A stretch of 64,000 bases of DNA from Haliclystus octoradiatus (taxonomy: Eukaryota > Cnidaria > Staurozoa > Stauromedusae > Haliclystidae): contig OU744447.1 of the NCBI GenBank assembly GCA_916610825.1, forward strand, positions 35,519,024 to 35,583,023, given 5' to 3'. The stretch's first letter is position 1. Each line of letters begins with the position of its first letter. Position numbers and translations under genes: made by a program. Positions 1,879-56,942 of the stretch are shown in pieces. The notes under the pieces were generated by a model. It had not been told where the DNA came from, did no database searches, and worked only from the letters and a program-made list of their open reading frames with translations.

Positions 1879-4800
1879 CTATAATGAGAGAAACACATAT
1901 AATCTGATGTTAATAATCACTTGAAAAAAACGCAGTTCGGGATTGGCGGATTTGTACAACCTGTCTTGCACTTATGTCAAGAAAATCCACGACATTTTCC
2001 ATAGTAACCACTAATTTATATGGGCTTTTCGTGCTATGTCTGGTATAGAGATTGCAGGCGTAGGTCTATAACCGCACATTTGCCGTTAAGCCCTGGCCAA
2101 ATGACTTATTTATTTCTCCAACATTCATCGGATTTTGTTGAGTTCATTTTCGTCAACAGCGGATGATATTTTGAGGCTTGGAAGCTAGTCAATCGAGCCC
2201 ACCAATCCTGAGACAGGCTACGTCATTTTTGACCAATCAGAGGAAGGCTCTTATTTTCAACAAAGCTCAACAATGTTGAGGAAATAAAAAGTCATTTGGC
2301 CACTTCGCCAACATTGGTAGAGAACAATAGAACTCAACAAAATCTGATGAATGTTGAGGAAATTTTTGAATGTATTCAAAATCGAAATTCAACATCAGCC
2401 AACAAAATCCGAAAAGTTGAGGGTGGCCAAATGACTTTTTATTTTCTCAACATTCATCGGATTTTGTTGAGTTCAACAATGTTGGCGAAATAAAAAGTCA
2501 TTTGGCCGGGGCTTTATAGACCTATAACTACACGGTTTTCAACCAAACAGCTAGAACACAAGTTTTGAAAATGGCGACAAGCTGCGACAGATTGAATATT
2601 TTTTCATAAAATCAACGGAGTGGATAAATCTACGGCAGGAAGTTCTTTGTTCCTCTGTTTTGAAAGTTCATCACAAAAATGGATTCTATTTTCAAGTCAA
2701 ACTCCAGATAATAATAATACCAAGTTATAATATAATCATACCAAAACTGTTGTGACAATTGTTTTTATATATACTAATAATTAGAATCAATGTGTGTATC
2801 CATGTTCAAAACATTCTCTTCTCAAAAACTTCGAAAGAGATTGTATATAGTCAATCAATTAATGATAATAGAATTAATTTGATGAAGGGTCAATTTCAAT
2901 CAAGTGCGCATGCTCGGTAAACTTCCGTAGCTTTATCCAAACCGCTAAAGCTACGGCAACCGTAGCTTTATCCTTGTCCTAAAATCAAATGTATACTCTG
3001 TAATTGAAAAATCAACTTGAGAAGTTCAAATAAAGTAACAGATTGAGATTTGCTATATTCAAATGTAAATTTTACTATATTTTTAATATTGCAAACATTT
3101 TGAAATAACAACTATGTTGAATTTTTCGCGTTATATTTTGATATGATATTCGTAGGAATGTCATTCAAATTGTATTTATTGAAAATTCAATGGATCGTTA
3201 AATTAGAAAGAAAGCAATCGTTGTCGTGAAATTGATGAGAGATAGTTGATGTTCCAGACAAAGGCTATGTTACATGATTAATAAAATGATTACATCACTC
3301 TTGTTCGTGGGCCATCGAAATTTAGACCCACTCGTTCTCTAATAACAAACTCGTGGGTCTAAATTCCGATAACCCACTCACAAGAGTGATGTAATTCTTT
3401 ATTAATGTATAATGTAAACATGTAAGATGGGACAACTACGATAAAAACACAGCACGGAAAACAGCAAACACATTTGACATGAAAGTCAAAGAGGAATCAA
3501 TAAAGCAAGTTGATAGTTTTAAATATCTGGTGATTTTCATTGATAAATGTTTAATTTTCAGCCAACATGTGAGTCGTCCATCTCTATATGCAGCAAAGCT
3601 AACATGCGTTAATACTTGCAAGTAAATTATTTCCATTTAAGTGTCGACGCATGCTATACGACGCGCTTCCCATGAAGTAATCTCTATATACATTTATACA
3701 TACACATGAATTCATAGTGGTGGACGATTGTAGCATGACTTGACTTGACTTTTATCGAAAACACAGTGAACTTCAAGTAGAAAGAGCGCTCAAACACGCA
3801 TGTTTTCAGTGAATATACAGTCATATCCTGGCCTCCCTATGATGACTACAGTACTCTCATGAAGTCACAGATTAATGCTTACCAAGAGAGAAGTTGTAAC
3901 CGCTGTCCATGCTATCACTATAGTAGCCACCAATGCTTGAACACCCAATAATCTTACTGATCCACCTTTTAACACACCATAGGTGTCATTGAGTTGTTCA
4001 AGGTTATCCTTCTCTGCAAACAATGATACTGCCATGACGCTCCACACACCAGCAAAGAAATGAGTGGATATACAACTGACTGGATCGTCCACACCAAGCC
4101 ACGCAAGAAACTCATCACCTTTCATAGAAGAGAAAGAAGGATGCCCTCAATCATCAAGCAAAATAATCAATAGGAATAGCTGACAGGGGGTAACTCCAAG
4201 TGCCGCATGCAGGGGGGGTGCCACTTTGGTAAAATGTGAAGTACCCGAAAAGTCCCCAAAATCCTTTCAAAGCTCGCCAAATAGATTTAAAAACTTGAAA
4301 ATGCTACCCAAAAAATCCAGGGAGGGTACTTCCATATAAGTTCTATGAGGGAATGTTCCTTTTTATGGCAAAAATTCAAATCCAGTTTTCAGTTTTCAGC
4401 ATTCAAATTCAGTTTTTTCCCAAATTCTCTAGAAAATCGAAATGCGACCCAAAACGTTTAATATTCTAAAATTTCCTACCCAAAAAGTATATTTTTCAGC
4501 CGGAATATGGATCCAAAGAAAGTGGCACTTCCCCGTATAGCAGCAGTATGGGAGTTACCACCCCCCGGGAATAGCTGTGATTCTGATAACAAAAAGTCTA
4601 TAGAAAAAAAACATGTGGAAGGAGTGAACCTCATCCAGTATACCATATTCCTCTACTAATTGTTAGAGCCAGACTTTTGAGCTCCATTTATTTGGATTAT
4701 AAATTTCATAAACTAGATTTTGAGTTGCATGCAAATGCATGCTTATATTGAGTTGTGAATCATCTGGCTCGACTGGTTCAAATAAATGCATGAAGAAATC

Positions 4801-7800
4801 TATGAAGAAAAGATGATTGAAGCCGAAATTTAATTCAGAAATTATCCTATTTTATTTTTTGCTGTTCAAAGAAGCAAAAAGTTGAGAAGTGAAAAGTGAA
4901 AGTTAAGTAGCCATACACCCCCCCCCCAAAAAAAAATCAAACAAACATTTCTAACCCGAGTGTCATAAAGCTGCAGGGTAACAATTTTTGGGGGTTTGTT
5001 TAAATTTTATTATGTTCCACCTAACAACACTGGCACATCCCGAAAAAAATTGATTGATTATTTTTTATTCATAACGTGGTTATTCAACATTTGATTCAAG
5101 TGACTTCTGAAAAAGTATAGAATGAGAAACTATTTATCATCTTTACATCTTATTTTATTAATTACTGTCAATGTACATTCTTTTATTATATTTTAATTTA
5201 TTTGTTGTCACTGATGAAGTGGAAGTTGGTATTGCAATTGTTTCTATATTTTAATTAAATTTCATCGCAATACTGTACAATTTAACACTGGCTGTGATAA
5301 TCAGGAAATATTTTTATTTTATATCTTTGTAATTTAATTTCCATAACGCGGGTTTGTTTACAAATTTCATAACCTTATATTCAAGTCATTTTCAAATAAT
5401 AATTTATGATCAATCATTAAATAATTTCCAACTGAAGATAAGATGATGACACATCTTATTTGTTTCACTTTCATATAAATATATGTGTTGTTTTGTTCGT
5501 TTACGTTTGAATTTCATTCTGATAATTACTGCGATGAAAATACACAAATTATCTGTCACGTCGCAACAAAGGATTGTGCTGTTTTGTATTTGCGAGACAA
5601 TAGAAATTCATTCAAGTGCGAAACTGCTTAGTTAGCGCTTCAGTCTGAGAAAGCATTGTTGTTGAAAAAGGAAACAGTTTTCATTAGCTTTCATCAACTT
5701 CGATGTATTTATTTAAGAAATGAAGCCGGCCATGTACGCCTCTGGTTAATAACGAATCCATTGATATGTGTTTCAAGTCAATTGCATCAAAAATGGCATC
5801 GTGAATCCCCGCCTTACATACGGACATACAAATGGAAATAGCGTAAATTTAAAAGTAGATGCGTTCTAGGAAACATCCAATCGGTTGCTCACTAGCATTC
5901 GAGCAATAGTGACACACAGCATTTTCGTGAAATATGTGGTGTCGTTGTGAAGACCAAATTCACCAAATAGGCAAACTTTTATTATCGTCAGAAGAAGAAT
6001 AGGAAGCCATATCGTATTAGTAATATTTTCAGCAACATTTCACAAGTTATTTCAAAGGAGCAAAATTCATATCTTCTATCTATAGATGTAATTGTATGTT
6101 GATGTTCAAAACTTCAGAATTAAAATTGAACTATTGAGATTTTTAGCTTCCATTGAAGGTGTGAAAATGTCGCAAATGTGAAAGTTTATTTTTATATGAC
6201 GAGAACAATACTATATCTTAATATTATTATCAAACTTGGAAAACAGGAACAACTAACCAACTAAGAAAAAATATACTTTTCTATTTCCTAGGAGCAAATC
6301 TTTATATCTGCTATAAAAAAAAGTAATGTGGACGGTGTCGCCCTACCGAAGGCACCCGTACCACTCCTCTATTTCTAGAAGAGTGGCTCTTTTCGCTAAG
6401 AGCAATGATGTTAAACGCTCCTTAGATCTCAGCCGCGACACTGCAGATCAATTTCAACAGATTTCATGGCAGATAGGGCTTGATTGTCAATGCGCAACGA
6501 TGCGCCGCAGCTACTCACAATGCAATTCCTTCTGAACCATTCCATCCGCCATCCCTAAATGGTACTCATTTGAAGTCAAGGCTGAGTTGACCTGAGGGGG
6601 ATTTGAACCACAGTCGATGAGATATGATACGATCTGAAGTTCGGTTGCTCTGCCAACTGAGCTAATCACCCCATATCTGCTATGGAAGAACTCGAAACGA
6701 GCTAGTTACTATTATTGACTCTAGTAGTAGTTGCACTAGTACAAACATACGGAAGTTTGGTTTTCATTGGTATAGAGGGAGAATAACACCAATTGAGTAA
6801 AAACAACACGGTGGATTGATGCAGAACTGATATGGCGAGAATAATACTTATTATGCAAAAAGATCCCGATGGATTGATGCAAAAATAATGAATCTCAACT
6901 AAACTTAAGGCAAATTTCAGCTTGAAATAAAAATTATCACGTTAAAATTATTATTACTTAACATTTTCCTGCGTACAAATTCCTGAAATTCCTCAACCTA
7001 TGCAATTTTCGATTATTCCCATGGTGATATTGAGTGATCATTTATTGAATATTTTTGACAAATCTAATTTCAGACAGAAAGATGTTTGATGTCCACAACG
7101 AAACTTTATCATGAGGATATTTTGAAAATTCATGATTCCCAGAAATTGTGTAATATATGTTTCACTTAATATTTTATTCCATTGTATAGAACATTTCTAA
7201 TACGATAAATCAATCCCTCTTCGTTCTTGTATTTTCCGATTTAATCTCATATCCTCTGAATATTTTGCATGGATCCCGCATGGATAAGCTGTCCAAAGGT
7301 GTTTTCAACACTTCATTCATGTCTTCCTGCTCCAAAGCAAGTTTATAATAGATGACAATGCCTTTAATATAGGATAATATAGGATAACTTACCAGTTACA
7401 GCCAATGAGCCCCCAACAAACCCTATCAGAAGAGCTTCCCATGGTCTGCAAAGAGCACATATTGCAGTTACACCAACCAAACCACCGAGTATCCCTGTTA
7501 CAAAAACAGGAATATGAAGACGACCTTTGAACTTTCTACGAGTGTATGAGTAGATAATAGCAAAGATTGCACCGCCAATTGATCCATTGATTGTTACCAC
7601 AGCAGCACGAGAAGCTAATTGCCATTTATCTAAGCGGATAAAGAGAACTAGATTATTTTATAGAACGCAAGCTGGGAAATGCTTACTTCTTGCTATGACC
7701 TCTGTGCAGATTTTTGACTGGAATAACATTTATGTCACATCATCTAAAGGCAACTATAAAATCAAAATCAGCTGAATGAAAGGAGTGACGATAACATGAT

Positions 7801-19151: not shown

Positions 19152-22100
19152 GTATTATCTAACCTATTCATTAATATAATTCACTATTTCAATGCAATGT
19201 GCACATTTTTTGTAGTTGCTTTGTGATGAAAATGACCATTTTCAGCTCCTTATGCATTATTGGTATGCGGCTTTTTAAATTGCGGCATATTCACTGTATT
19301 ATTAATAATTATAAAATAATAACACTCGCGACATTTCAGTACAAAATAACAACACAGCCTACTTGGCTTTCATATAGCGTTTTTGCTAATTAACTTCAGC
19401 CATCTCAAGTGAATGACTTATCATAATAAAGAAGATAGATAGATATACAGTATATATATACAAATACTTCAGTCATCTCAAATGAAATAAATCATGAAAA
19501 AAGTAACCATTATACCAGTGGAGATCGAAAACTGAAGTATACTAGAAAACTAACGTAAATACTGGAAATGAAACAAAAACTAACATTTCTAATCCTTAGG
19601 GTAAATACATTGCTGCTTCGGGAAATGTATGTAATTTGCTAATTACGTCATTTAAAAACTCTGCATGGAATTGATAGATTCTCCTTGGAAGTTCAAGAAG
19701 CTAAATTTAATTTTTACAATATTTACCCATTTTCAAATGTTTTTCAAAGTTATCATCTCTGTGATGCCATGCTCTTTATGGATATGTGTACAGAGGCTAC
19801 TATTGCGGTGTTCATCAATGCGCTCATATATGTCCTAATAAAGAAAAAAATAGTAAAGAAATGATAATAAATTAAAACTCTAAACATCTTTGCATTTTAA
19901 AAAATATAGTAATAGTTGCATCCGAATATCGCAACTCCCAGGCTGATGCTTTTTATTTTTCAGGTTGAGTATTTTTATTTGCAGAGTACATTTGATTTGA
20001 AATTCAGAAAAGTAATTAAATTTGTTGCTGCTCTTCGCCCTTCTCAAAACACTTGCTCTAGCTTCTAGCTGTTAGGTTAAAACCGTGCAGGTATAGCCAG
20101 TGCGGGTATAGGCCTAAACCTGCACAGTCAATACCCAACATATCACGAAAGCCCATATACTTTAGTGACTCTTATGTAACGTCAAGCGTTGTCTTGACAT
20201 AACTGTAAATCACGTGGTACAAATCCGGCAATCATAACTTGCGTATTTTATTAGTGAATTTTAAAGTAAAATATACAGCAAAGCGTGTAGGGTAACAAGA
20301 TGGGCATTCAATTGCTGCAACCAAAAACTTAAACAAAATGAAAAAAGAATAAACTCGAGAAATACTATATACATTAGTATATAACAAACTCAGAATAAAA
20401 AACTTAAAATACATTAATAAGTGAAAGTGTGCTAAGCTGTTCGATTGATGCAGCAACAGTTCAAGTTGGCAGTACTCGTGGCAAAGATGTCAGGATTATC
20501 ACAACTTGATTTTGCGATAGAGTAATTGAGGACAGTAAAGTAACAATTGGATCATAAGCTTCGCAGATCTATTTATTTGGTATTGCACTAAAATATGACG
20601 TCGTAATTCAATGTTATCCTGCAACTTTATTGGTTGGTCCATGTGTTTGGAAATTCAAGGATAATTATTTCGAAGTTCCAATTTGATCAACAGACATTTA
20701 TTAAGTAAAAACATTGAAATTAAGTTGGATTTTAATTCATTAATTCAAGATTCGAGCGACCTTCCGCAATATAAACAAACTTGGTAATGAAATTTGTTTC
20801 ATTTTAGAAAGGACTACCAGTACAGTACTTGTGAATAATCCTCAAACATTTTGGCTATTTGGCTACGGTTATTGCATTCCAGGAAAGCCGAGAGAAATCA
20901 TTTGCACTAGAAATCAGAATATGTAGCATATATATCTCACTAAGAAACATTTTTATTATGCTGAAGGGACAATTACTAAAGGCATTTGAACCAGATCTAA
21001 TCAAGTTACATGATTTTAATAGAAAAAGCCCTTTTATTTATAGTGTTTGTTTGTTTGTTTGGAGTTTATTAAAGACATATATACAATGATTTGTTATGAT
21101 ATATATAGTGGTTACAGATTTGTTTTTTACATTAATTTAAGCGGCTGATTCTTGATGTCTGTATTTTTACTGTTATTATTTATTTATGACTCGTAATTTA
21201 CTAGCTATTGCATTTTTGAAGGTTAGTCCATTTAGATCTTAAAAATTTGAGTATGAGATGTTGAGGAGGGCTGCTCCTCGAAACGCAAATGACCGTTTTC
21301 CTCGTCCACTTGTAACTTTTGGCAGGATGTATGGCTGAGTTTTTGTTGTATACTCCGATGTTGATTTGGAGAACATTTCTTTGAGATTGGGTTCATTACT
21401 CCTCGATACATTGGGGCCGTTACATTAGTGGAATAGGGTTTCCTAACCCATGGAATTCAAACATGTAAATTCCATATTTAGACGCTCGTCTTACTTGATC
21501 GTTCTTCGGAAATGAATTTCTCCAGACATTTTCATCTATACTGTATTTTCAGGAATGGTGAGTTCTAAGAATGAAGCAAATATCATGGTTAAAAATGCAG
21601 TTGACGTTGTGTTTGGTGGTTTAGCCTATTGGTTATTTGGTTATGGATTAAGTTTTGGTAGAGATGGGAACTCGTTTATTGGTTTTGGATCATTCTTAGC
21701 TGATACCGATGAAAAAAACATGGGGACGAAATTTTCAAAATATATTTTTCAAATGTCATTTTCAACAACAGCAACGACCATTGTTAGTGGTGCAATGGCG
21801 GAAAGAACACGTTTACGTTCTTATATGGTTTATTCATTTTTAAATAGTTTAACATACAGTTTACCATGTCATTGGATTTGGAGTGAGGATGGATTTCTTG
21901 CTCAAATGGGAGCTGTTGATATCGCTGGTGGTGCAGCTGTCCATATTGTTGGTGGCGTTAGTTCTCTTGTGGCTACTTTGATTATCAAACCAAGACATCG
22001 AAGATTTGATCCAACAGCACAACGGACATTAGCATCTGCTCCAAGTGTTGTACTAGGGACATTTATGTTGTGGTGGGGTTGGCTAGGCTTCAATTGTGGC

Positions 22101-25100
22101 AGTACATTTGGAATAAGTGGCAGTAAGTATACAAGCTTTTGATATAGATGATGTAACCACTGTTACTAATTATTATTACTTCAAGCAGCGTGTAAGAAAC
22201 GATGACATCCATTTATCAACTATTCATTGGGGTTGCTTATGTAATGAAAATGTAAATTATAGTGGCAACAAGCAAAGAATACACATGAGAGTTAAGTTAA
22301 TTAGCTCTATTCATCACTTGGTGGAAGCTAACTGAAATTGAGACTAACGAATTATTGTTTTACGTAGGTTATATATCTAATTAAGGTGTTACAATATTAC
22401 GAAATGATAATAATTACGGGAACATTAAACAATTATTACAAGGTAAATAATAAAGGCATTCTTACATAACTCATATTTCACACTTCTTTACAAATGACAT
22501 AATATCACACAACGATAATTAAAAGATATTTACAAGCAATAATCACAACTGAAAGGCTGACTTCCATTACACTTGGAACATTTTTCGATGGAGAGGGATG
22601 TTGAACATTTTAAGATGATCACATATTTTCATTTTTCAGTAGTAGAAAGTAGATATAGCAAAATACAGACCACATAAATGAAAAGTGGAAATAGAAATTA
22701 AAAAAAAAAGTAAGAAATTGACCAAAATCAAGAGGTAAATACTTCTAAAATGTTTTCAGAACTTAGAAAAAGGTTCCCTTTTATATCTTAGCGATACCAA
22801 AAGTATGATGAATCTGTTTCCAGATAAACGTGTCTCCTTTGAGCTATATTATAACCATGATTCAGGTCACAATAATTATGAACAAATCCGTGAACATCTC
22901 AAACTTATTGATCGATAAAAGCTAAATTTAGAATGATGAGAATGTGGAAGCTAATTGGACATGCATTAGCTCCAAGGTAATGGACTCTAAGCTGCTGGAT
23001 GTTAGCTCACTGGCTCAAAACAAATACTATGATCACATGCTAAAAAGAAAGGCTCTGTAACTATATTTTCTAACAATGTGGTTGTTAACATAGCAAAATA
23101 TCATGTAAATTATCTCCACTTGTTGATTCAGTAATAAGTTTTAGTAACCCAAACAATGATATAACGCTGTAAGGGTAAAATACCAAACTGCAAACTCTTG
23201 CAAACTTACCAACCAAGCCCAAAGTGACGAAATGGTTTTCTTGTCTAGACCATTGGCTATTCAATCTGTAAGAGTTCTGACCCCCGTCTCAATGATGCTG
23301 CTAGCTCACAATTTTTGATGAATTTCACTTTGTTGGAAATCATGCCAATAAAATGCGACTTGTACCGTATCAAAATCGTGTTCACGTTTTTGGAACTTTA
23401 ATTGGTGTGTAGTTATAGAAAGTACCTACGAAAGAAAATGTTGGAGTCATCATTTTCGTTTCATCACATCTAAAAAGAAATCTTCACCATATTAATCCAA
23501 CACAGTGAGATTCATCAAAAATAAAAACACTGTGAGCAAGCAGCATCATTGAGACGGGGGTCGGAGACTTTCAGATTCGCCCAGACAAGAAGACAATTTC
23601 GTCATTTTGGGCTTGGTTGGTAAGTTTGCAAGAGTTTGCAGTTTGGTATTTTACCCTTACCGGATATAATGAGTTATGCGATGACTGAAGTTTAACTTTA
23701 ACCCAAAATACTATAGCAATCAGATAAGAAAATCCTTGCAAGAAACTCAGCAATGAGAAATAATCGTGTAGATTCAAATTAAATATATGCCATAGTCTCA
23801 CATAGCACGAACAATAATTTTTCGGACAAGTCGTATTTTGTATAGAAATGAACATGTTCTTAATAATCCCGGGGGTAACTCCACGTTCCGCATTGACAGG
23901 GGGGTGCCACTTTGGAAAAATGTGAAGTACCCGTCAAGTCCCAAAAATCCTTTAAAAGCTACCCAAATAGATTTTAAAACTTGAAAAGCTTACCCAAAAA
24001 GTCCAGGGATAGTACTTCCAAATAGGCTCTATGCGGGGTTGTTCCATTTTTATGGGTAAAAATTCAAATCCACTTTTCAGTTTTCAGCATTCAAATTTAG
24101 TTTTTTCCCAAAAACTCTAGAAAATCGAAATGGAACTCAAAACGTTTAAAATGTTCTAAAATTTCCTACCCAAAAAGTATATTTCTCAGCTGGAATATGG
24201 ACCCCAAAAAAGTGGCACATCTCCGTATAGCAGCAGTATGGGATTCACCCCCTGCCCCGGGTCAATAATCCGTGACTTGACAGTGAGTAGATCTATAAAC
24301 AGTGAGTGTCGCATGAATCATAAACAATCAAAGATATTTATAAATTTTTATTTTATTTAACTTTTTCTGTAGCAAAATGGAAATATGCAACCCGAGCTGC
24401 AGTTGTAACTATCAATGGTTCAATTGGTGGTGCTATATTTGGTATAGTGTATTCATATTCAAGAAGTAAATATAATGGTCGTCTTCATGTCCCTGTATTT
24501 ACAACAGGAATTCTTGGTGGTTTGGTTGGCGTTACTGCAATATGTACATTATGTCGGCCATGGGAAGCATTGTTAATTGGTGCAGTTGGTGGAGCATTAG
24601 CAGTTGGTGGTATGTGTCCTAAATATTAGTTATTTTCAAAAATTGAAACAAGTAGGAGTATAGAAGTATATTGTTAGACACTTCAATGCAATTAATCCAA
24701 TCATGCAAGTGTTATAGGAGGATTAGCTCAGATGTCAGAGCAAAAGAACTTCAGATCGTATCATATCTGATCGCCTGTGGTTCAAATCCCCTGGAGGTCA
24801 ACTCAGCCTTGACTTTATCTGAAACATCAAATGAGTACCATCTGAAGATGGTGGATAGAATGGTTCAGAGGGATTGCATTGTGAGTAGCTGCGGTGCATC
24901 GTTGGGCATTGAAAATGGAAAAACCGAGACCTGTCTGCCATGAAATCTGTTGAAATTGATCTGCAGTGTCGCGGCTGAGATCAACAAAGAGCGTTTAAAA
25001 TCATTGCTCTCAGCGAAAAAGCCACTCATACAGAAACGGAGGAGTGGTACGGGTGCCTTCGGTAGGGCGACACTGTCTACATTACTTTTTACTTTATGCA

Positions 25101-27433
25101 AGTGTTAGATATCGTGTGTATACATGTCAACACGCAGCAATAAATCAACCTTAAGCTGAGAAGTACAATGAGTGGCTATTTTATGTGTTGTCTCATTTTT
25201 GTATAGATGCATATCGTTGTAAGTTACACAAGCTGGCGACAAAATGGACATTGTGTTATTGTTATCATCTATACGTAAAGAACAAGCAGGAATAGTAGTA
25301 TTAACAGTCTAGGAAGAACTTTGGCATTGTGATGTGTTCAAAGTAATTTTCACTTAAATAAACTTCAAGATTCATTTTACTCCAAGTCAATATTATTTAT
25401 CAATCCTTAATTAACTTCTACAGGAGATGAAATGCTCACATACTTAAAAGTTGACGACCCAGTTGGTTGTATATCAACCCACTTTTTCTCTGGAGCATGG
25501 AGTGTTCTATCAGTGGGATTTTTTGCTGAAAAGGGGTCATACGATGGAAGCTCTATTTACAATGGAATTTTCAAAGGAGGACCATGGAAATTCATTGGAA
25601 TACAAGCTATTACTATAGTATCAATCAGCGTATGGACAGCTGTGGCAAGTGCAATCATTGTGAGTATTAAATTGTTAAAAATTGTTATACCGTATATTGC
25701 CGTGTATAAGTCGATAGAACGTATAAGTCGACCCCCAATTTTTGAAGCAAAATTCTAGTATTAGGTGACATATTTTCTTATCAAACGACTAGATTCCATG
25801 TATAAGTCGAGGCAGGCTTTTGGAGCCATGTTTTAAGTTTTAAGAGGTCGACTTATACACGGCAATATACGGGTAGTTGTCTAGAAATTCCAAAATAGAG
25901 ACCCAAAAAGTTTTCCAGAACCTGCAATTTCCGACCCCAAAAATTTTTCTCTGGAATTTGGACTGCAGAAAAGTTCTGGCGGAGTGATGACGATATAGTA
26001 TGAGCACAGTATAATTCGCGAATGTGTAACTCATATGATACAGCAATGCCTCGCGATGATGTATTGCCTATTATATATTTAACTAATAGAAAACGGTACT
26101 GAGTTTTATGTACTCTGATACGAACACGCTGGGTGCGTTATGAGACATGAAAGAGGCTTAAAAGTTCGCGAGCCGATAGTCGAGTGATTTTGGCTTCGTG
26201 AGTGTCTCATAGCACCCAAAGTGTTCGTATCAGAGTACTTAACACGGGTAACCGTTTTCTATTTTGTTTTATAAAATAGATAACCTGTTTATCTTGACAT
26301 TAAATTGCTCAAAATGATGATCATATCTAAATTCTCTTAGAATGATGTCATTGTAGAGACTAGAACGAGCGCGGATTTTCAATAGAAACATGCTGTGCAT
26401 TTAGACAAAAGCTACGACAAGTTGTATAAAAAGGAGCAAAATAAATTGAAAATAAACGCAAAGAGCATTGGTTAAGTCTGAATACATTATTAATATAGAA
26501 GATTTAAAGTATTAATCAGCTACTCATATACAGGATCCTATGTGTTTATGCTTTTAGAGCAGTTCAAAAACGCTGAAATTTATCGTATCGTAATATGCCG
26601 CTTTTACATACATTGAACTAGAGAATTTATAGATTAATGTTTAATTCATGATTTTGTTTCAAAGTTATTTTGTTTTGTGTTATTAATTTTAATTTGAAGG
26701 GTATTTTTAAGCGCTCTTTCAATGAAAACTTTTCTTCATAGGAACGCTATTTTGTTTCTGTTGCTAACTTGTTTCACATATTTTGGGGCTTTTAAACAAT
26801 AACCGTAATTTTACGATTTTACGCAGCCTGACACAAACATCAATAAAAACCAATCAGCGATCAGTATCACATTCTATGATTATATAAATAATGATATTAC
26901 ATTTTACAGTCAATGGATGACCCCGATAAACACAAGTGCTTGTTTACTGGGGGACATTACATGTGCGCCCCGACAAGGAATCGAACCCCGGCCTCCCACA
27001 CGGAACGCGGACACTCTGCCATTGAGCTAGCAGTGCATAAAATTTATCTTGATTACTATTTATTGCCTATTTTTGTCGATTATAGCTATTAAGCATTGAC
27101 TATACAATTGGGTTGCGTATGCCGCTACACGAGGAATTAATAGGGGCTGATATCACAGAACATGATATTCATAAAATCAACATATCTGAGCTACTGGAAA
27201 ATGAAACAATGTATTCTCAATCAACAGAAGATAAAAAATTTAATCGGATTAAATTTGAATCTAATCCATTCCATCATTATGGATATGATAATCAGCATTT
27301 TATTGATGTGGATATAAAAGAGCATACAACTGATGAAGATAGACAAATTGCTGCCCGTAATATCGCTTTAATGTGGAAAAATAACGGCCAAGAATCACCA
27401 TCAAAACAAAAACAAGAAACTGTCCATTTCTAA
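19031..27433 (+). CDS. AMT: Ammonium transporter, copy B (five exons, complete)
   Basis: Amt-family ammonium transporter. The spliced CDS joins 19031-19151, 21553-22122, 24373-24609, 25424-25659 and 27086-27433 (1512 nt, 503 residues) with no internal stop. The start ATG gives MEQNESCIFHTE with an NES sequon, then TM1 DDATWILTSAF. It keeps HWIW, VDIAGG (Asp163), VHI (His171), WGWLGFNCGS and CISTHFFSG (His329). In the C-terminus it departs from A and C: the usual LRVSLEDE reads LRMPLHEE, and EHG reads EHD. Opposite strand to both neighbours: head to head with A, tail to tail with C. Confidence 0.94.
19152..21552. other. Intron 1 of Amt copy B
   Basis: AT-rich, no coding. A short motif around 20190-20232 (TCACGTGGTACAAATCC) recurs at 42418-42434 in Amt C intron 2. 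Confidence 0.8.
21553..22122 (+). CDS. AMT: Amt copy B exon 2 (TM2 to TM6, pore core)
   Basis: 570 bp, acceptor gtattttcag|GA, donor GGCA|gtaagt. Begins MVSSKNEANIMVKNAVDVVF and ends GSTFGISG. The pore motifs match copies A and C, with one residue fewer than A in the loop after KPRHRRFD. Confidence 0.94.
23165..23662. mobile_element. Long foldback transposon in Amt B intron 2
   Basis: 498 bp. Inverted arms of about 150 bp start TAAGGGTAAAATACCAAACT and are nearly identical, around a 180-bp centre. GATATAA lies at 23158-23164 and 23663-23669, a 7-bp target duplication. Confidence 0.75.
23868..24261. mobile_element. G-rich-ended hAT-like MITE, copy 2
   Basis: 394 bp, closely similar along its length to 4183-4569. 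Ends CCCGGGGGTAACTCC and CCCCTGCCCCGGG. Flanks TTAATAAT and TCAATAAT agree at 7 of 8 positions. It lies 111 bases upstream of copy B exon 3. Confidence 0.77.
24373..24609 (+). CDS. AMT: Amt copy B exon 3 (TM7-TM9)
   Basis: 237 bp, acceptor tttctgtag|CA, donor GGTG|gtatgt. Encodes KWKYATRAAVVTINGSIGG through GGALAVGG. Confidence 0.93.
24715..25095 (+). mobile_element. tRNA-derived SINE (family 1), copy 2
   Basis: 381 bp in intron 3 of copy B, with pol III A and B boxes at the start. A perfect 12-bp duplication ATGCAAGTGTTA lies at 24703-24714 and 25096-25107, as expected for target-primed reverse transcription. The 3' end is T-rich. Confidence 0.83.
25424..25659 (+). CDS. AMT: Amt copy B exon 4 (second pore histidine)
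   Basis: 236 bp, acceptor ttctacag|GA, donor ATCATT|gtgagt. Encodes GDEMLTYLKVDDPVGCISTH and the last helices. Confidence 0.92.
25690..25873. mobile_element. Mariner-like MITE in Amt B intron 4
   Basis: 184 bp. TIRs of about 25 bp begin CCGTATATTGCCGTGTATAA and are flanked by TA on both sides (25688-25689, 25874-25875), which suggests a Tc1/mariner-type element. Confidence 0.55.
26110..26238. repeat. Hairpin repeat, copy 1 of a two-copy family
   Basis: Inverted arms of about 37 bp starting GTACTCTGATACGAACAC. Homology to 16580-16880 continues downstream to about 26390 (GAGCGCGGATTTT...AGAAACATG), so the full repeat is about 300 bp. Confidence 0.55.
26966..27036 (-). repeat. tRNA-like sequence, degenerate Gly(TCC)-type
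   Basis: Minus strand, in intron 4 of copy B, 49 bases before exon 5. D-arm GCTCAATGGCAGAGT; anticodon arm TCCGC-GTTCCGT-GTGGG pairs; T-arm CGGGG-TTCGATT-CCTTG pairs with wobbles. The acceptor stem has at least two mismatches. Decayed tRNA or SINE head. Confidence 0.45.
27086..27433 (+). CDS. AMT: Amt copy B exon 5 (divergent C-terminus)
   Basis: 348 bp including TAA; acceptor cgattatag|CT. Encodes LLSIDYTIGLRMPLHEELIG, ADITEHDIHK, then a polar tail of about 80 residues. The tail is not obviously alike in the three paralogues. Confidence 0.92.
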   Translation, partial: LLSIDYTIGLRMPLHEELIGADITEHDIHKINISELLENETMYSQSTEDKKFNRIKFESNPFHHYGYDNQHFIDVDIKEHTTDEDRQIAARNIALMWKNNGQESPSKQKQETVHF

Positions 27434-30488: not shown

Positions 30489-30881
30489 AGGGCGGATTAG
30501 CTCAGAATAGGTCGGATTAACTCAGATGGCAGAGCAATTGAACTTCAGATCGGATCATATCTGATCGACCGTGGTTCAAATCTCCCTCAGGTCAACTCAG
30601 CCTTGACTTTATCTAAAACATTAAATGAGTACCATCGGAGGATGGAGGATGGAATGGTCCAGAGGTAATTGCATTGTGAGTAGCTGCGGCGCATCGTTGC
30701 GCAATGACAATCGAGACCTATTGCCATGAAATCTGTTGAAATTGATCTGCAGTGTCATTGCTGAGATCAACAAAGGGCGTTTAAAATCATTGCTCTCAGC
30801 GAAAAAGCCACTCATCTAGAAATAGAGGAGTGGTACGGGTGCCTTCGGTAGGGTGACACCGTCTACATCCTTACTTTATAT
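30489..30881 (+). mobile_element. tRNA-derived SINE (family 1), copy 3
   Basis: 393 bp between copies B and C, with a short duplication ATACGCAT at 30481-30488 and 30882-30889. The A-box end is doubled (GGATTAGCTCAG, then GGATTAACTCAG). Confidence 0.75.
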
Positions 30882-33226: not shown

Positions 33227-33613
33227 TTATTTTTCTCGAAGTAACTCTGGTGGATGTTTTTGACTTGTATTTGAAGCTTTCCTATCTCTAAAATTTAGAG
33301 TTGATAATGAGCTTTGTGCTGTCTTGGAATCCACACCACGTGACATACTTGTTTCGTCATCAATATCAATCACGTGATCAAAAGCATTTTCAAGCCTTGA
33401 TGTACGACGAACGACACAATGTTTAAATGATACATTGCAATTATACATCACACTGTTCTTTTTAACATGGTCTGAATCTGTAAATTTGATCAACTGTTCT
33501 TGAATAATATCTTCCGCCATATGCTTATATAAGCCATGCTCATGAATATCTGCACCTAATATTTCATCTTCAAGGCTTACACGTAATCCAATTGTGTAAT
33601 CGATCGATAGGAG
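33227..33613 (-). CDS. AMT: Amt copy C exon 5 (C-terminus)
   Basis: 387 bp including the stop; acceptor ctcatttcag|CT. Encodes LLSIDYTIGLRVSLEDEIL, ADIHEHG and the longest tail of the three copies. The hAT element ends only 48 bases upstream of this exon, so the acceptor, pyrimidine tract and probable branch point must all fit in that gap. Confidence 0.91.
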   Translation of the reverse strand, partial: LLSIDYTIGLRVSLEDEILGADIHEHGLYKHMAEDIIQEQLIKFTDSDHVKKNSVMYNCNVSFKHCVVRRTSRLENAFDHVIDIDDETSMSRGVDSKTAQSSLSTLNFRDRKASNTSQKHPPELLREK

Positions 33614-36600
33614 CTGAAATGAGATGAAAGGCATTATTAGGCTCTGATACTCTACACTACCCACGGCCGTAACTTCCCTGTTTCTATTGGGGGGGTGTAG
33701 CGAAATTTGCCCGACAAAAATGGGCGTGTCTAGCAATCACATAAAATATGGTGTATGTTAAAATTTTCCTTATATTTGTATGCTAAAGCAAATTTTATAT
33801 ATTTTTAACAAGAGATTCATTTTCAGAAAAGATTTGATTATAATGTATAATATCATGTATAATGATGTATCATATCATAATACTTTAAGAAATTGAAAAT
33901 AAAACAACTCAATTGAGATTTTTAATAAGAAATTATAATGCACACCCAGGAATGTACACATTCGTTTCAAAAGAAATAGATAAAAGTTTTATAAACTAGC
34001 TGCTCAATTAAATATTAAACTACTAGGAAACTGTCCATGCTTCTGGTATTATACTAGCAAATAACTTCAACAAATCTTCAGTTTTCGGTTCTTCAGAGTA
34101 CTCCATATTGAGACTATATCTTCTAACTTGATGCTTTCAATCAAATCTCGCTCAGCAGACAAAATAATTAAACTATTTAGCCGTTTATCAGATGTAGAAG
34201 ATCGCAGGTAATTTTTTATTATTTTCATTTTGCCAAATGTTCTTTCATTCTTAGCGACTGTGACAGGGGCTGTGAACAGAAGCTTGTATGCTTCATAGAT
34301 GCTAGGAAACAGACGTTTAAGATTAAACGCGATCTCACAATATTCTTTGATGTTAGTTGGAGGATTGGCTAGATTTAAAACATGGATTCTAAATATTTCC
34401 ATTTCAGCGTTGAAACAATCAAGATCAAACGAACGGTTTTGCGGGAATAGATTGAGAATTTGTTGTTTCATTTGATCACTCAATCCATTATTACATAGGG
34501 GAGGCTCTAACACAGTTACCAGGGGATTTATCTTTTCCAAGCAATTAACAACATTTTCGGAATATTCACGTATTAACGAGTCCAATACCTCAATCATCGA
34601 TTTCCGATAATATTCCACGAATCTGATTTCCGCTGTTGATTCTGGATTCCCATCCTTTGTACGTGATGGCCTTCTCTGTCGATGTCGTCTGGAGAACTGT
34701 TCCATAGAATCTATGTCCAGTTTTTGAGAAAACGAAACAGAAGCCTCTATTTGCGCATTCATATCGGCTTCTCTGCTTCTCATTTCTTTCAAAGATTGAA
34801 CAGTATGTTTAAGTGTAGTCAATGCATCAAGTATGTTCAATGTTTCTTTCTGCATTGCAAGGGTTAATAACTTTGTTTTTCTCATAACTATACGCATAAA
34901 CATGATGGAAAAAATAAAATCGAAAGATAAAATGTTTTCTTGGATTGACAATGCCCTGCTCTTAGTTTTCTGGTCCATTTTTTCTGATCCAATGGTATCA
35001 ACTAAGGAATCACAGACAGCTTCAAATGACCTCCACATAGCTTCAATCGATTCGCTTCTGTACACCCATCTTGTTTTGGACAAATTTCGTAGTTTGAGGG
35101 CGTCATCGATACGATCAATATGCGATTTCAATATTGTGTTTCTGTAGCAACTTGAACTGAAAAATACATATAAATCTTGAAGTACAATATACATGGAAGA
35201 AATGAGCTCTGTTTTCGAGCAATGTTCAATGAAGGTATTGGACCTGTGACCCTGACACGGGATATAAGGTACAGATCTACGCAAATCGTTTTGTAGACAA
35301 CGCTGAGCGCCATTGAACTCACCAGACATGGATGCTGTGTAGTCATACGACTGGAACACCAGCTGATCTATATCCAATCCGTTATCTTTAAGGCTCTTAA
35401 TTATATCCTCCGCTTGTCCTTTTCCAGTTTTGTCATGAGTTTCTTTCATTTCAATAACTCTTTCTCTTGGTTGATTATTATTGTCAATATATCGAACAGC
35501 AACTACTAATCGATCAGTATTACTTGTATCTGGAGAAGTGTCGGCCATAACTGAATACATCCCTGCTTCTTCAACTTCATCGCAGATAATTTTTCGTATA
35601 ATATTTGCTAATATTGTAATAAATTCGTTTTGAGAAGCTGGAGATGTATACTTGATAGAGTAGGGTTTCATTCTTCTATCTTCCAGCCATGCCCGCATAC
35701 TACTATTATGACGAGCAACGAGATCCACTATTTGCATGAAATTGCTGTTCATTTCGGTGTCCGATCCACGAAAAGCTAGCTCTTGCGTACTTAAATATCG
35801 GGTTATATCAAACAAAATTTTGATAACTTCTTTGTTTTTTTTAAGATCTCTCTCTGCTTGAACTTTCGCTGACTGTATCTGTGAGCTTAACATTACGTCT
35901 ACATGACGCTCTTTCTCGGCAGCGAAGTGCACCAAGTCGGCTAAAGCTGCCTTGTGAGAATTGCTTGCGAAATGAGTAGCTAGTTTGCCTTTTTTATTTT
36001 GCCCAACACTTTTCATTTTATCCCAACCCCTCACTCCCTTGACCCATGCAATTTCTGCTTTCTCACGTCCTAGGCCAGACGGAAATAATCCGCACACAAA
36101 ACAAGTAGCACAATCATTCTTAATGCTGTATTCGACATGGGGGTAGTCTTTGAACCAATTACTAGAAAATCTACATTGCTTTTTGGAAGATATATCTGCA
36201 TTCATAGGATACACTTTCAACTTGGGCTGACAAGGACCTCGTTTTAGCAATTCTTCTCTTTGTAGGTCATTGAGGATTTCCGGTCTGTCTGCAGGATCGT
36301 AAATTGAACTGAAGTCTTCATCACATTGAGGGGTGCCAGCTAAGAGTTCTTTATCGTTAATCTTACCAAGTGCCGTTGTTGCATATACTTCAACCTCGCA
36401 ACTGAGTTTCTTTATTGTCTGGATATGAACAAGAATATCACAAAAAACTTGCTGCGGGTAAAAAATGTCAGTGCTTATACCCTCGGAAATCATTTTATCA
36501 CACATAGATCCAATGGCTATCAGCTCTTTAACGTTTGCTATACATTTGATCATAGGGTCTGGCTCTTCATTTAGCAAATAATCGGTTTCATCTAGAGAAC

Positions 36601-39600
36601 CAGTGATATCTTTATCAGAAAATCCCTGAGAAATATCCAATGAAGGCCTGTCATCAATAACATTATGGCTGGTGCATTCTTCATCCTCGTTATCATCAAA
36701 TCGATCAAAATCCGTATTCTCGTCACCAGAATGAGCTGATAACTCTTCTAAATCTACCGATGTTGGTATATTGACATTGAGTAAACTTGCTGATTCAGTG
36801 GAATTCTACGAAACACAAGTGATATCACAAAATTAAAATATGATTAAAATGTATATGGAAGCACTTCACTATAGGTGAATACGTTGTAGATACGTTGACG
36901 TCTTGACGTCAAATATTATGTAAGAATTTTTTACATGCGTATAATACTGTCATGAGGAGATGTTTCAATCGTCCATGTGCATTATTCAAGTTCCGAACAT
37001 GGTGAAATTGCACTGAAATTCCTGCATAACAACACTATTCTGTTTTGATTGGTGTAGCCGTGCAGGGGCATTAGAATTTGGGAAGATCTACCAAACTGCA
37101 CTGAGATGATGCTCTCAGATGCTGTGATGGCAAATTAAGAATACGTGAGTTATCATAATTTTACACAATTAATGTAGTGTTACTCTATCGTTGAGCTAAC
37201 AAATACCCTTTATGGTTAATATGAAAGTCACATCAAATCGATGAAAGAACAAAAAATATTAGTAAAATCTTGGAGCAATTAATAATGTATGTAAAAAGCT
37301 TACGCATTGTGCATATAATGTTTCCTCGTCCCCTTCTGCTGGAGCAGTTGATGTATCCCCTTTTTCAGGCGTCACCCCAGAATCAGTCAATGAAGCTTCT
37401 TTAGTAGGACAAATGGCTACTGCTTTCTTCTAAAATTATATAAAATTAGTGAAAGGATGTTGATGATGATGGTGAATGTATTTCACTTTGCATATAAATT
37501 ACTGTCATAAATACATACACGAAGAAAATTACTCGATTATGAATTTATGATTGGTTATAAGAGACATGTTAATTTTCCCAAATTTTCTCAGGAACGATGC
37601 AAACGTGGTTTTGAAACAAGGATTAAACCATTCAAAAATGTACAATGTTTTATATAGGTGGTGTTTGGAAAATGGTACATGAGAAAATGCTGTTGAGTTG
37701 CATATTTAACGATTTTATCATTACTTGAAGACAGTTAAACTGTTGAATAACAAAGCCTGGAACTAATAAAGGTATATAAAGTTCATCTTAAGAGATCTTT
37801 TTCAATGAATTGATCACAACAGTATTTAGTATAAAGAGTTTTGTGGATCACCAATTCATTATAAAAATTATGCAAACTAATCCCAGATTAAAATATACCT
37901 ATAAAAGATTAAAAATATAATATTGTTATAAAACATGAATATTTTAGTGCACTGCACACATCATTAAAACACAATTCACTATCGGGTCATTTATTACCTT
38001 GAAGAACTTTAAAGTGGTTTGACCAACATCCACGTGATTTTTTGATTGCGCCAATCCTGAATGTTTGATGGTATTGTGTCTTTGAAAATAATCATTATCC
38101 ATTGTTGCATTACACGTTTTGCATTCTACCTTCTGGCGGTAGTTTCGTTTACGGTTATTGTTACTCATTTTGGAACAAACTTGACAATAATTTTGTTCTA
38201 AACAAGGAACACGCTTGAATAGCGCCTGAATAGAACTGATTATAATTGCATCATAGTTCACAAGGTCATCTCATACGTTTTAACCCGGGTTGTAACATGG
38301 TTTCTCATTTCACTCACAATAACCACATCATGTTGATGCTACGTCACCAAGTGCATATCAACTTGCTTACAAGAATATATTTTCCCGATAAAGGCAGATC
38401 AAAATACGTATAATGTAGAAAGTCGATTTAAAATCAATAGTCATTAAGTATAATTGAAATGAAATAATTACTAATAAAAACGTTTGATAAAATTTGAAAA
38501 ATGAATAAAAATATCAGTTTTTGCCCGACAAAGTATACTGTTTCGTCTTCAAAAGTGCCCGAATTTTTTCCGAAAAAATGGATTGGGGGGGTGTGACACC
38601 CCCCCACACCCCCCCGGAAGTTACGGCCGTGACACTACCAACAAAACCATGAAAATGTCAGGGTGTCGTGAAACACCATGAAAATGTCAGGGTGTCGTGA
38701 AACACCATGAAAATGTAAAAAAGTGAAAACCACAAACTTTTCAAGCCATAAAAAAGTTTGAAAATCATGAAAACATCCATATTCACAATATTAAAATGTG
38801 AAAATGCAATGAAAACACAATTAAATTTCACGATTTTTTCATGGTTTTGTTGTCATATAGTGTCATATGTTATGATATGATATGATATGATATGATATGA
38901 TATGATATGATATGATATGATATGATATGATATGATATGATATGATATGATATGATATGATATGATATGATATGATATGATATGATATGATATGATATGA
39001 TATGATATGATATGATATGATATGATATGATATGATATGATATGATATGATATGATATGATATGATATGATATGATATGATATGATATGATATGATATGA
39101 TATGATATGATATGATATGATATGATATGATATGATATGATATGATATGATATGATATGATATGATATGATACATTTTGTCACTGTGACAGGCAAATGAA
39201 GAACAAATCACTCTGTATGAAGTGAAGTGTCATTTACAATAAAGTTATAACAGAATTAATAATAGTTCACTAACAATATATTAGTAATAAAATGTTTATG
39301 ATTTTATTTTATTTTATACTTTTACTTGATATTTGGAAGTTTTTACAAAATTGTAATAATTCGAATACATTTATTTTCTCCTTAAATTGAAATAGGGTAC
39401 ACGACGTTTTCAAAGTATTGTATCTTATCTTATCTGAACCGATCTTACTGAAAATCTACTGAGAATTCACTGAATCACATTACCGAATTGGGTGGGACTA
39501 TACTTGAGGTTCTTTTCAGTTGTTTTACAGTAGTCAATGAGAAGAATGTAGGCAAAGTATCGGTATTATCTCAGTATGAATCTTGGATATACTGAATCGC

Positions 39601-42600
39601 TATTGACAACTTATTGAAAACATACTGGAATACTATTGTGTATTGAAACCGTACTGAAATTCATCAGACAGTCAAATCTAGATTTTGCTCATTCTACTGA
39701 AAACTACTGAAACGCAACTTAGAATTCGAAAGCCACTGAAATGAGCCAGATTCAGTAGCCTATTCAGTTCCACTACCATCACGGTAGGTTTTTCAGTAGC
39801 GATTCAGATATCCAAAATTTATAGTGTAATGACTTACCAAGACTGCAGTTGTAAGGGAGGCCCACGAAGCTGTTACTACAATCATGAGCAATTGGACATA
39901 AAGGATACGAATCGATCCACCCTTAAGTATACCATATTGTGAACTAAATCCTTCCAATCCATCTTTTTCAGCAAATAATGCCACTGCAAGTACACCCCAG
40001 ATTCCAGCTAGAAAATGAGTTGATATACAACTCACAGGATCGTCTATCTTCAATTTTACAAGAATTTCATCTCCTAGAAATTGATAATAATAAATTTCAA
40101 AACAATCTATACCTATAAATGCGAATGTCTTTGTGTAGGAGTGTTTGTGGTAGCCTGCGCACAGACCGAAATATTTTTTAAATGCTTATAGTAGGGCCTG
40201 CGTAATATTGACAGAAAGGTTGCACTGGACTGAATTAGTGGAGTGGCTAAACGTGAGAAATCTATTGTTCGTCTTTTGTTCATCAGTCAATCGCTAGCAA
40301 ATTCTGCAAAACTAGAACCAGATCATGATTAGCTGATGAACAATAGACGAACAATAGAATTCACACATTTAGCCACTACCACTAACTCCGTCCTGCGCAA
40401 GCTGTTTGTATTACGCAGACCCTACTAATCGTAAGAAAAGAGTTGGGTATGCGCGCAGGCTATGTTTGCGATGGCTGTTTGAGATTTTTCGGCCATTTCA
40501 AAGCCAAGTGAATCAAATCGCATACCATTTCATCGATGACTTATTTAGTTACAGTGCAAGAATCAAACTTGTAGCACAGTGTTGCTATGTTTCCAATTTG
40601 TAGCACAGATGAACAAAGATCCAGACTCTCCAGATGTCATAAACACGCTGGACACAATTCTCGGTCACAGTTGCTTCAACTTAACTAAGATCGGATTGTG
40701 ATCCTCAATATAGAACCAAGTACTCACAGACTTACTTACGGGCCCATCACCATCATATAATTTCATTCATCATACCAAATCATCTATCAAAAGTGTTAAA
40801 GTGTCACTCTCAAAGGGTACGAGTACAAGCATAGACTTTGAACAAATATCTAAAACTATAAAGTACAATGATTTATTGAATATTCACCCACCTATTATAG
40901 CAATAATTGCACCAATGAAACCGATGATTAAGGCCTCCCAAGGCTTACAAATAGCACAAATAGCTGTGACACTAACAAGACCACCCAATATACCAGCTAC
41001 AAAAACACCAATATCCAAACACCCTTTATACTTATTTACTCGTGAGTAAGAATAACCAACAGCAAACACTCCGCCTCCAATCGAGCCATTGATTGTTACT
41101 ACTGCAGCTCGTGAAGCTAACTTCCATTTATCTAAACAATAAATACAGTTTAATGTGACTAGCCTTATCTGTGTTTTAACCCTGCCAAGGGATACATCAC
41201 AGACCTTCCTGATGCAGACCCATGATAACGAATCATAACAGACACGGATGTTTTTTTCAGCAGCAACGAAATACATCAACGAAATAGATCAATGAAGTCT
41301 ACGTACAAAGCAAGCAAGGAACGCTTTATACGTTTCGAACAAAGCAAGGTTTTCCTACGGATAATTCTTGCAATCTGATTGTTTAACGCCTATAAAGCTA
41401 TCTCACGATACCAAAGCTTTGTAAACAAACCAGGGCAAAAACCGCCTGTGAAAACATATTTTCAAAATGGCTGATCACACCTTTGAAAATTGAAATTCAA
41501 TGTGCCAAGCAACTCTTGCCATAGCTTTCTTCTGGTAACGTCATAAATATAGGAGAATTACATTGTTGATCACGGTTTCTAAGATCAAAAATGCTCTTAA
41601 GAGCGTACCAAATAGCCACAAATCAAGATGGTCAAAATTTAGTGCAACATTCTAATTGTTATCGGCCCTGTCGAGCTGATGTTGCGTGGATGGCAATATG
41701 AAGCCAACACGTGCTCTTTACAAGTTCTCCACCAAACTCAACAATGTTGAGCAAATTTTGAGAAAATGTTGCGTAAATTTTGAAATTTTTGATCTTAATA
41801 TTTTTGGTAAAAAATTATTTAGAATTGCTCAGTATGATAATTTATTATACTGTACAACCATCAGTGTTTTAGTAGGGTGTCTACCTCTCATAAAAGCCGT
41901 ATTCCATAAAGTTGATATTTCACAGATTTGAAACACACACGTAGCAATATGAAATTTTCACACGTAAAAATAAAACTTTCATCAATTCACAGAGCGGCTT
42001 GTATTTGCGTTACCAAGGAAACTCTCCATTTGGAAACTAACTGAAACGCCATGCTGTAAGGCATTGAATCTCTTCAAATAAAACTGACTTCAAACAAATC
42101 AAACAAATTATTATGTTTTGAAATTTGTGTAATAACAATGTCAATAATGGATGACAGGTTTTTATCTGTAAGTGACACGGATGGTAACTGTTTTGTTGAC
42201 GAAGAGATTATAACATGATTACAAATACTGTGCATCGTCTGCTGTTGTTGTTTCAAACGAAATAATAACAAACCATAGCGCACGTAAGACTCACGTACAG
42301 AAACTTCACGATAATAACATTATATAGCTGTACATGCTCTCAAGTTAATTTTTTGTATAATAAGCCAATAGAATTTTAGCTGTTTCCATGGAATGGGTTG
42401 TCTTGACAAACTACAACTCACGTGGTACAAATCCACCAAAAAGGATCGCTTTTTTTCAAGTTATCATTAAAAAAGATTTTACATGAAAAAATTAACGTTT
42501 GATATAGATCATATCATACTTTTTGATTTTATCAATTTGCGCACGTGACTAGAAATCACAAGATTATTTTTGCACATGCGTCGTACTGTCTATGATGTCT

Positions 42601-55215: not shown

Positions 55216-55580
55216 AAGGGAGGATTAACTGAGATGGTAGAGCAACCGAACTTCAGATCGGGTCATATCTGATCGACTGTGGCTCAAATCCCCCTGAGGT
55301 CAACTCCAGCCTTGACTTTATCTAAAAAATCAAATGAGTACCATTTAAGGAAGGCGATTGGAATGGTCCAGAGGGATTTTCACTATGAGCAGCTGCGGTG
55401 CATCGTTGCCCATTGACAATCGAGACCTAACGGCCATGAAATCTGCCGAAATTGATCTGCAGTGTTGCGGCTGAGATCAGTAAAGTGCGTTTAAAATCAT
55501 TGCTCTTAGTGAAAAGAGCCACTCCTCTACAAATAAAGGAGTGGAACGGTGCCTCCCGTTGGGCGACACCGTCTACATTA
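55216..55580 (+). mobile_element. tRNA-derived SINE (family 1), copy 4
   Basis: Full-length copy with A box, B box (GGCTCAAATCC) and the family body ending GTCTACATTACT. I see no convincing target duplication. Confidence 0.7.
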
Positions 55581-56749: not shown

Positions 56750-56942
56750 AAAATAAGTAATGTAGACGGTGTCACCCTACCGAAGGCATCACTACCTCTC
56801 CTCTACCACTCCTCTAATTTCTATATGAAAGGCTTTTTCGCTGAGAGCAATGATTTTTAACGCTCTTTACTGATCTCAGCCGCGACACTGCAGATCAATT
56901 TCAACAGATTTCATGGCAGACAGGTCTCGATTGTCAATGCAT
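56750..56942 (-). mobile_element. tRNA-derived SINE (family 1), 5'-truncated copy
   Basis: Minus strand, 3' half only, from the T-rich tail (rc of AAGTAATGTAGACGG) to the middle of the body; the tRNA head is missing. Confidence 0.65.

Follow-up and report, generated by a model that had tools for sequence, protein, structure and literature searches.

What is the transposon that interrupts an Amt gene in this window (the whole 64-kb stretch of DNA analysed), how recently did it arrive, can it still move, and does it disturb its host gene? We conclude that it is almost certainly a full-length, autonomous-type cut-and-paste hAT of the DUF4371 (Tip-like) branch, recently inserted in a conserved intron of an Amt gene that belongs to a cluster of three. 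The evidence comes from the element's ends, its predicted transposase, its copies elsewhere in the genome and the exons on either side of it.

Ends and predicted transposase of the element

Defined by its terminal inverted repeats (TIRs), its target-site duplication (TSD) and its genome copies, the element is 4970 bp long (33662-38631; minus strand, taken as that of the transposase), and the flanking TSDs extend the span to 33654-38639. The two copies of the TSD, ACACTACC, match exactly (33654-33661 on the left, 38632-38639 on the right). The left 16-bp TIR, CACGGCCGTAACTTCC (33662-33677, plus strand), is perfectly matched by its reverse complement at the right end (38616-38631, minus strand). 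Beyond both ends the 64-kb window contained no TIR match with 0-3 mismatches, and two places matched with 4 mismatches. A motif search placed the subterminal motif TTTGCCCGACAAA once near either end (33706-33718 and 38520-38532, both plus strand), while a further subterminal motif, GGGGGGGTGT, occurs at 33689 and, in either orientation, at 38585, 38596 and 38606. The first-pass annotation had described perfect 16-bp TIRs, a perfect 8-bp TSD and matching subterminal motifs; all are present, the TTTGCCCGACAAA pair being direct and not inverted.

Repeats were seen in and beside the element. Adjoining the right TSD, 38640-39230 holds a short tandem repeat, AAACACCATGAAAATGTCAGGGTGTCGTG in about two copies, followed by or next to a long run of TGATA pentamers. 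The segment 38195-38263, which precedes the transposase start codon, has counterparts of about 80% identity at 12 other genomic sites; two of these were fetched, and they have 171 bp in common at 92%. The element may therefore contain another repeat piece around this position.

The predicted transposase has three exons on the minus strand, placed from sequence only, and its 1011 codons contain no internal stop, in agreement with the fully open three-exon frame proposed at first pass. Each of its two introns has GT-AG borders and lies in phase 0. By ORF prediction, exon 1 (37998-38168) supplies 57 codons with a zinc-finger-like C-x2-C-x11-H-x4-H pattern seen by eye, exon 2 (37304-37429) supplies 42 codons in phase 0, and exon 3 (34067-36805) encodes residues 100-1011 and the stop. 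Pfam profiles identified DUF4371 at residues 395-598 (55.0 bits, cut-off 32.1) and the hAT dimerisation domain (Dimer_Tnp_hAT, PF05699) at residues 929-987 (27.2 bits, cut-off 21.4), both in exon 3. No Pfam profile matched the Cys/His patterns over its cut-off, and exon 1 returned only DUF7565 (E 0.05, 14.4 bits, cut-off 27.1). Exon 3 also holds the putative catalytic residues D521, D587 and E953 and a KTRW motif, all placed by motifs of hAT transposases. The sole NCBIfam hit was weak and unrelated (12.4 bits, cut-off 1250), and pattern matches in viral contigs (12) and in bacterial and archaeal genome contigs (17) included none confirmed as a relative. An AlphaFold2 model of residues 280-1011, built from an alignment of 19 rows in which the window protein was joined by 18 fragments of broken relatives (two of these, at 19 and 13% identity, were probably misplaced), was poor (mean pLDDT 57.9, pTM 0.31) and was set aside; none of 280 Foldseek matches to this model reached E <= 0.001.

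On TSD, TIR and domain, membership of the hAT superfamily is secure. The 16-bp TIRs fall within the 10-25 bp given for hAT elements in the excerpted text of PMC3942097. We provisionally call the element Tip-like because DUF4371 is present. It resembles the BuT2/Tip group, as excerpted from the same paper, in its 8-bp TSDs, short TIRs, multi-exon transposase, combination of DUF4371 with a hAT dimerisation domain, and internal-deletion MITEs. It differs from BuT2 itself (2775 bp, 643 aa, 12-bp TIRs in that excerpt of PMC3942097) in being 4970 bp long with a 1011-aa product and 16-bp TIRs, and in the long N-terminal region of its transposase. An RNase H-like DUF4371 followed by a C-terminal Dimer_Tnp_hAT is likewise the arrangement of DUF4371-type hAT transposases in the available portion of PMC3985635, where N-terminal zinc fingers are usual; candidate TTF or other zinc fingers of the present protein were seen by eye and not by profile. 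With Hermes (PMC10368747) the element shares the hAT superfamily and integration across 8 bp, and it may also share the binding of subterminal repeats by an N-terminal zinc-finger domain. The Hermes transpososome has been solved (PMC10368747), whereas the exon-3 protein matched no PDB chain in sequence at E values up to 1. Among the open-licence literature matches listed, no title named the element, and the first 12 letters of its TIR were not found in open-licence papers.

The host Amt gene and its intron

The window contains a cluster of three Amt paralogues, recognized by Pfam and exon comparison and alike in their exon series; two share a strand and the third is on the opposite one (10641-1789, minus; 21549-27175, plus; 43515-33227, minus). 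Four exons of the element-bearing gene were matched in each of the two paralogues. Its exons, placed from sequence only, cover positions 22-220, 220-291 and 295-369 of the Ammonium_transp profile, and the exon starting at 33613 matched positions 371-396 weakly (E 0.068, 12.3 bits, under the cut-off of 23.2) but is supported because two paralogous exons in the window match it. Scanning by motif for the first exon of Amt gave no match. The element is flanked upstream by coding sequence at 39838-40080 (minus strand; profile 295-369, Pfam and paralogues), with the donor TTG/GTAAGT at 39838/39837, and downstream by the C-terminal exon at 33227-33613 (minus strand; weak Pfam match and paralogues). 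Donor and acceptor exon are both phase 0. The intron between them is 6224 bp long, or 1246 bp once the element and one TSD are subtracted by hand, and is common to the two paralogues in the window, where it measures 2004 and 1426 bp (by hand, assuming like boundaries). These exon matches bear out the earlier proposal that the element lies inside an Amt intron, on the Amt strand and 48 bp from the acceptor.

The 48 nt between the edge of the element (TSD included) and the Amt exon keep CCTAATA and a tract rich in pyrimidines that ends in CATTTCAG, with the AG intact. Normal Amt splicing is therefore expected; the gene probably splices across the element, which is probably a neutral intron insertion. 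Alternatively, in line with the first-pass suggestion of altered splicing or chimeric transcripts, the Amt exon could be spliced to transposase exon 2 or 3 in a transcript ending within the element, yielding a truncated Amt or a fusion. Amt and transposase share a strand, and since the Amt and transposase introns are all phase 0, the Amt donor agrees with every transposase acceptor and a chimera would be in frame. It could possibly end at an ATTAAA found on the sense strand at 33926, past the transposase stop at 34067. However, the host acceptor with its pyrimidine tract and AG has been left intact and agreement in phase often arises by chance, and we regard such chimeras as quite unlikely.

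Sister copies, deletion derivatives and recent transposition

The first-pass annotation had called the element complete and young and had proposed a genome-wide search for its TIR and transposase. We searched the 261.9 Mb (33 contigs) of the genome holding the window for the TIR and for the whole element. The TIR was found in 41 places with at most one mismatch (21 exact), compared with one for a control using the backwards pattern. Twelve of these places bound six full copies, ten bound five MITEs and 19 were others; among nine of the latter that were fetched (L020-L028), one (L025) matched the element (blastn, E <= 1e-5). A search with the whole element gave 67 matches, and 40 of 59 candidates were scored, so that all copy counts are lower bounds. 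There are at least six full-length copies (three on contig C2, one on C5, two on C7), which differ in any pair at 1-25 substituted positions and 0-12 gap columns over roughly 4970 bp and form two groups, the window copy (L014) with L009 and L010, and L011 with L012 and L013. The 1011-aa frame is open in all six. An exact 8-bp TSD flanks four of the six, the window copy included, and the other two have none.

The MITEs, of which there are at least five, are nearly identical (280-282 bp), and every one of the five has an exact 8-bp TSD. Alignment of all five showed the left end of the element joined to its right end; in L018, for example, 104 bp of left end and 180 bp of right end meet with 4 bp in common at the junction. 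By this structure they are internal-deletion derivatives of the hAT element. The exact TSDs of the four full copies and five MITEs (9/11 elements) all differ from each other and, by eye, show no clear consensus that would indicate a target preference. hAT MITEs have been reported at inversion breakpoints in cod (PMC12368964). Another locus, L024, contains at 4773-5001 a 229-bp MITE-like element with TIRs CACGGCCGTAACTACA and CACGGCCGTAAATTCC and cgttattg on both flanks; judged from these ends, it is a related family.

Six near-identical copies with intact frames, five near-identical MITEs and exact TSDs on 9/11 elements point to recent transposition and uphold the description of the element as complete and young. 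Codons with an amino-acid change outnumbered silent ones in 13 of 15 pairs of full copies and equalled them in two, so constraint among the young copies is not visible.

On these data the element is probably still able to move, and the first-pass suggestion that it may still be active is plausible. In such a cycle the transposase would bind the TIRs and subterminal motifs, cut the element out with its DDE RNase H-like domain and insert it at target sites across an 8-bp stagger, and the same transposase would have mobilised the 280-bp deletion derivatives. The element could instead be young but now dead, its burst ended by host silencing or by subtle changes in the transposase. Copies are few for the size of the genome (at least six full, and MITEs with exact ends numbering at least five). 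Compared with the window copy, each of the five sister copies has 3-10 amino-acid differences, and two of the five carry G957D, four residues past the putative catalytic E. We give this reading an appreciable chance, tempered by the frames open in 6/6 full copies, by MITEs that differ only in the lengths of their G-runs and by the proportion of elements with exact TSDs.

The two full copies without a TSD, L009 (C2:6034145-6039114) and L010 (C2:6052433-6057402), are direct copies separated by 13,318 bp; a single substitution distinguishes them, and they have a left-TIR change in common. Alternative transposition, in which the ends of two elements are used at once, has been studied in maize Ac/Ds. 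The right flank of L009, GTTGCAGT, agrees at 7/8 positions with the reverse complement of the right flank of L010, TTTGCAGT, as if both right ends had joined one target; random 8-mers reach this agreement in any of six pairings at a frequency of 0.0045, in a test chosen post hoc. Tandem duplication was rejected as the 1 kb flanking one copy does not repeat the 1 kb flanking the other. A reversed-ends duplication, as in PMC3744419, predicts a common TSD on one side, which was not seen. Had the two copies exchanged directly with others by homologous recombination, swapped TSDs would be expected, and none matches exactly by eye. Alternative transposition is known for Ac/Ds (PMC3744419), and complexes of two right ends have been described for Hermes (PMC10368747). 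We think it unlikely that the pair arose in this way, misassembly of the region being at least as likely; if true, it would be an example, from outside plants, of the maize Ac/Ds process occurring naturally.

The left flank of L009 also holds an interspersed repeat of about 370 bp, copies of which, 84-90% identical to it, occur in the window at 6313-6667 (plus), 24719-25091, 30514-30866 and 55221-55576 (all minus) and in part at 56762-56940 (plus). In four aligned window copies the reverse complement begins tRNA-like (GGATTAGCTCAG..TGG), and GGTTCAAATCC is present in some copies. Taking these as A and B boxes, the repeat is probably a tRNA-derived SINE.

Broken relatives and the history of the family

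The same genome contains older relatives of the element, five of which were examined, with dN/dS measured against the window copy. Their aligned DNA pieces are 94-96% (L031), 83-93% (L032), 89-97% (L025), 75% (L033) and 72% (L034) identical to it, and the aligned coding sequence of each carries 2-6 stops and 6-14 frameshifting indels. The values of dN/dS were 0.76 for L031 (dS 0.029), 0.34 for L032 (dS 0.13), 0.36 for L025 (dS 0.081), 0.17 for L033 (dS 0.84) and 0.20 for L034 (dS 0.98), and are read as lying on the upper side because neutral change accrues by decay after inactivation. In the pieces of these five relatives the D587 motif is retained in 4/4 where aligned. Of the four that align at D521, two keep it and two have another residue, whereas E953 persists in four and has changed in the fifth.

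Since dN/dS is 0.17-0.36 in four of the five relatives, the transposase probably stayed functional over a long time. This suggests long purifying selection on the transposase and a family that is a long-term resident of the lineage, in which it would have persisted through repeated births and deaths of copies; related elements may also have arrived repeatedly. Recent horizontal transfer of a family with no earlier history in the lineage would account for six near-identical copies. Such a transfer is very unlikely given that this genome also holds broken relatives grading from 72 to 97% identity in their aligned pieces, and given the low dN/dS in four of the five examined.

Long residence with recent transposition remains our preferred reading. 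The element is well preserved, yet ordinary for a common cut-and-paste type, and its general interest is modest. Tip100 has been used for transgenesis in medaka (PMC12511174). With a coding-intact family, its own MITEs and older relatives together in one genome, the present element would be a fair candidate for an activity test of a long-transposase DUF4371 hAT.
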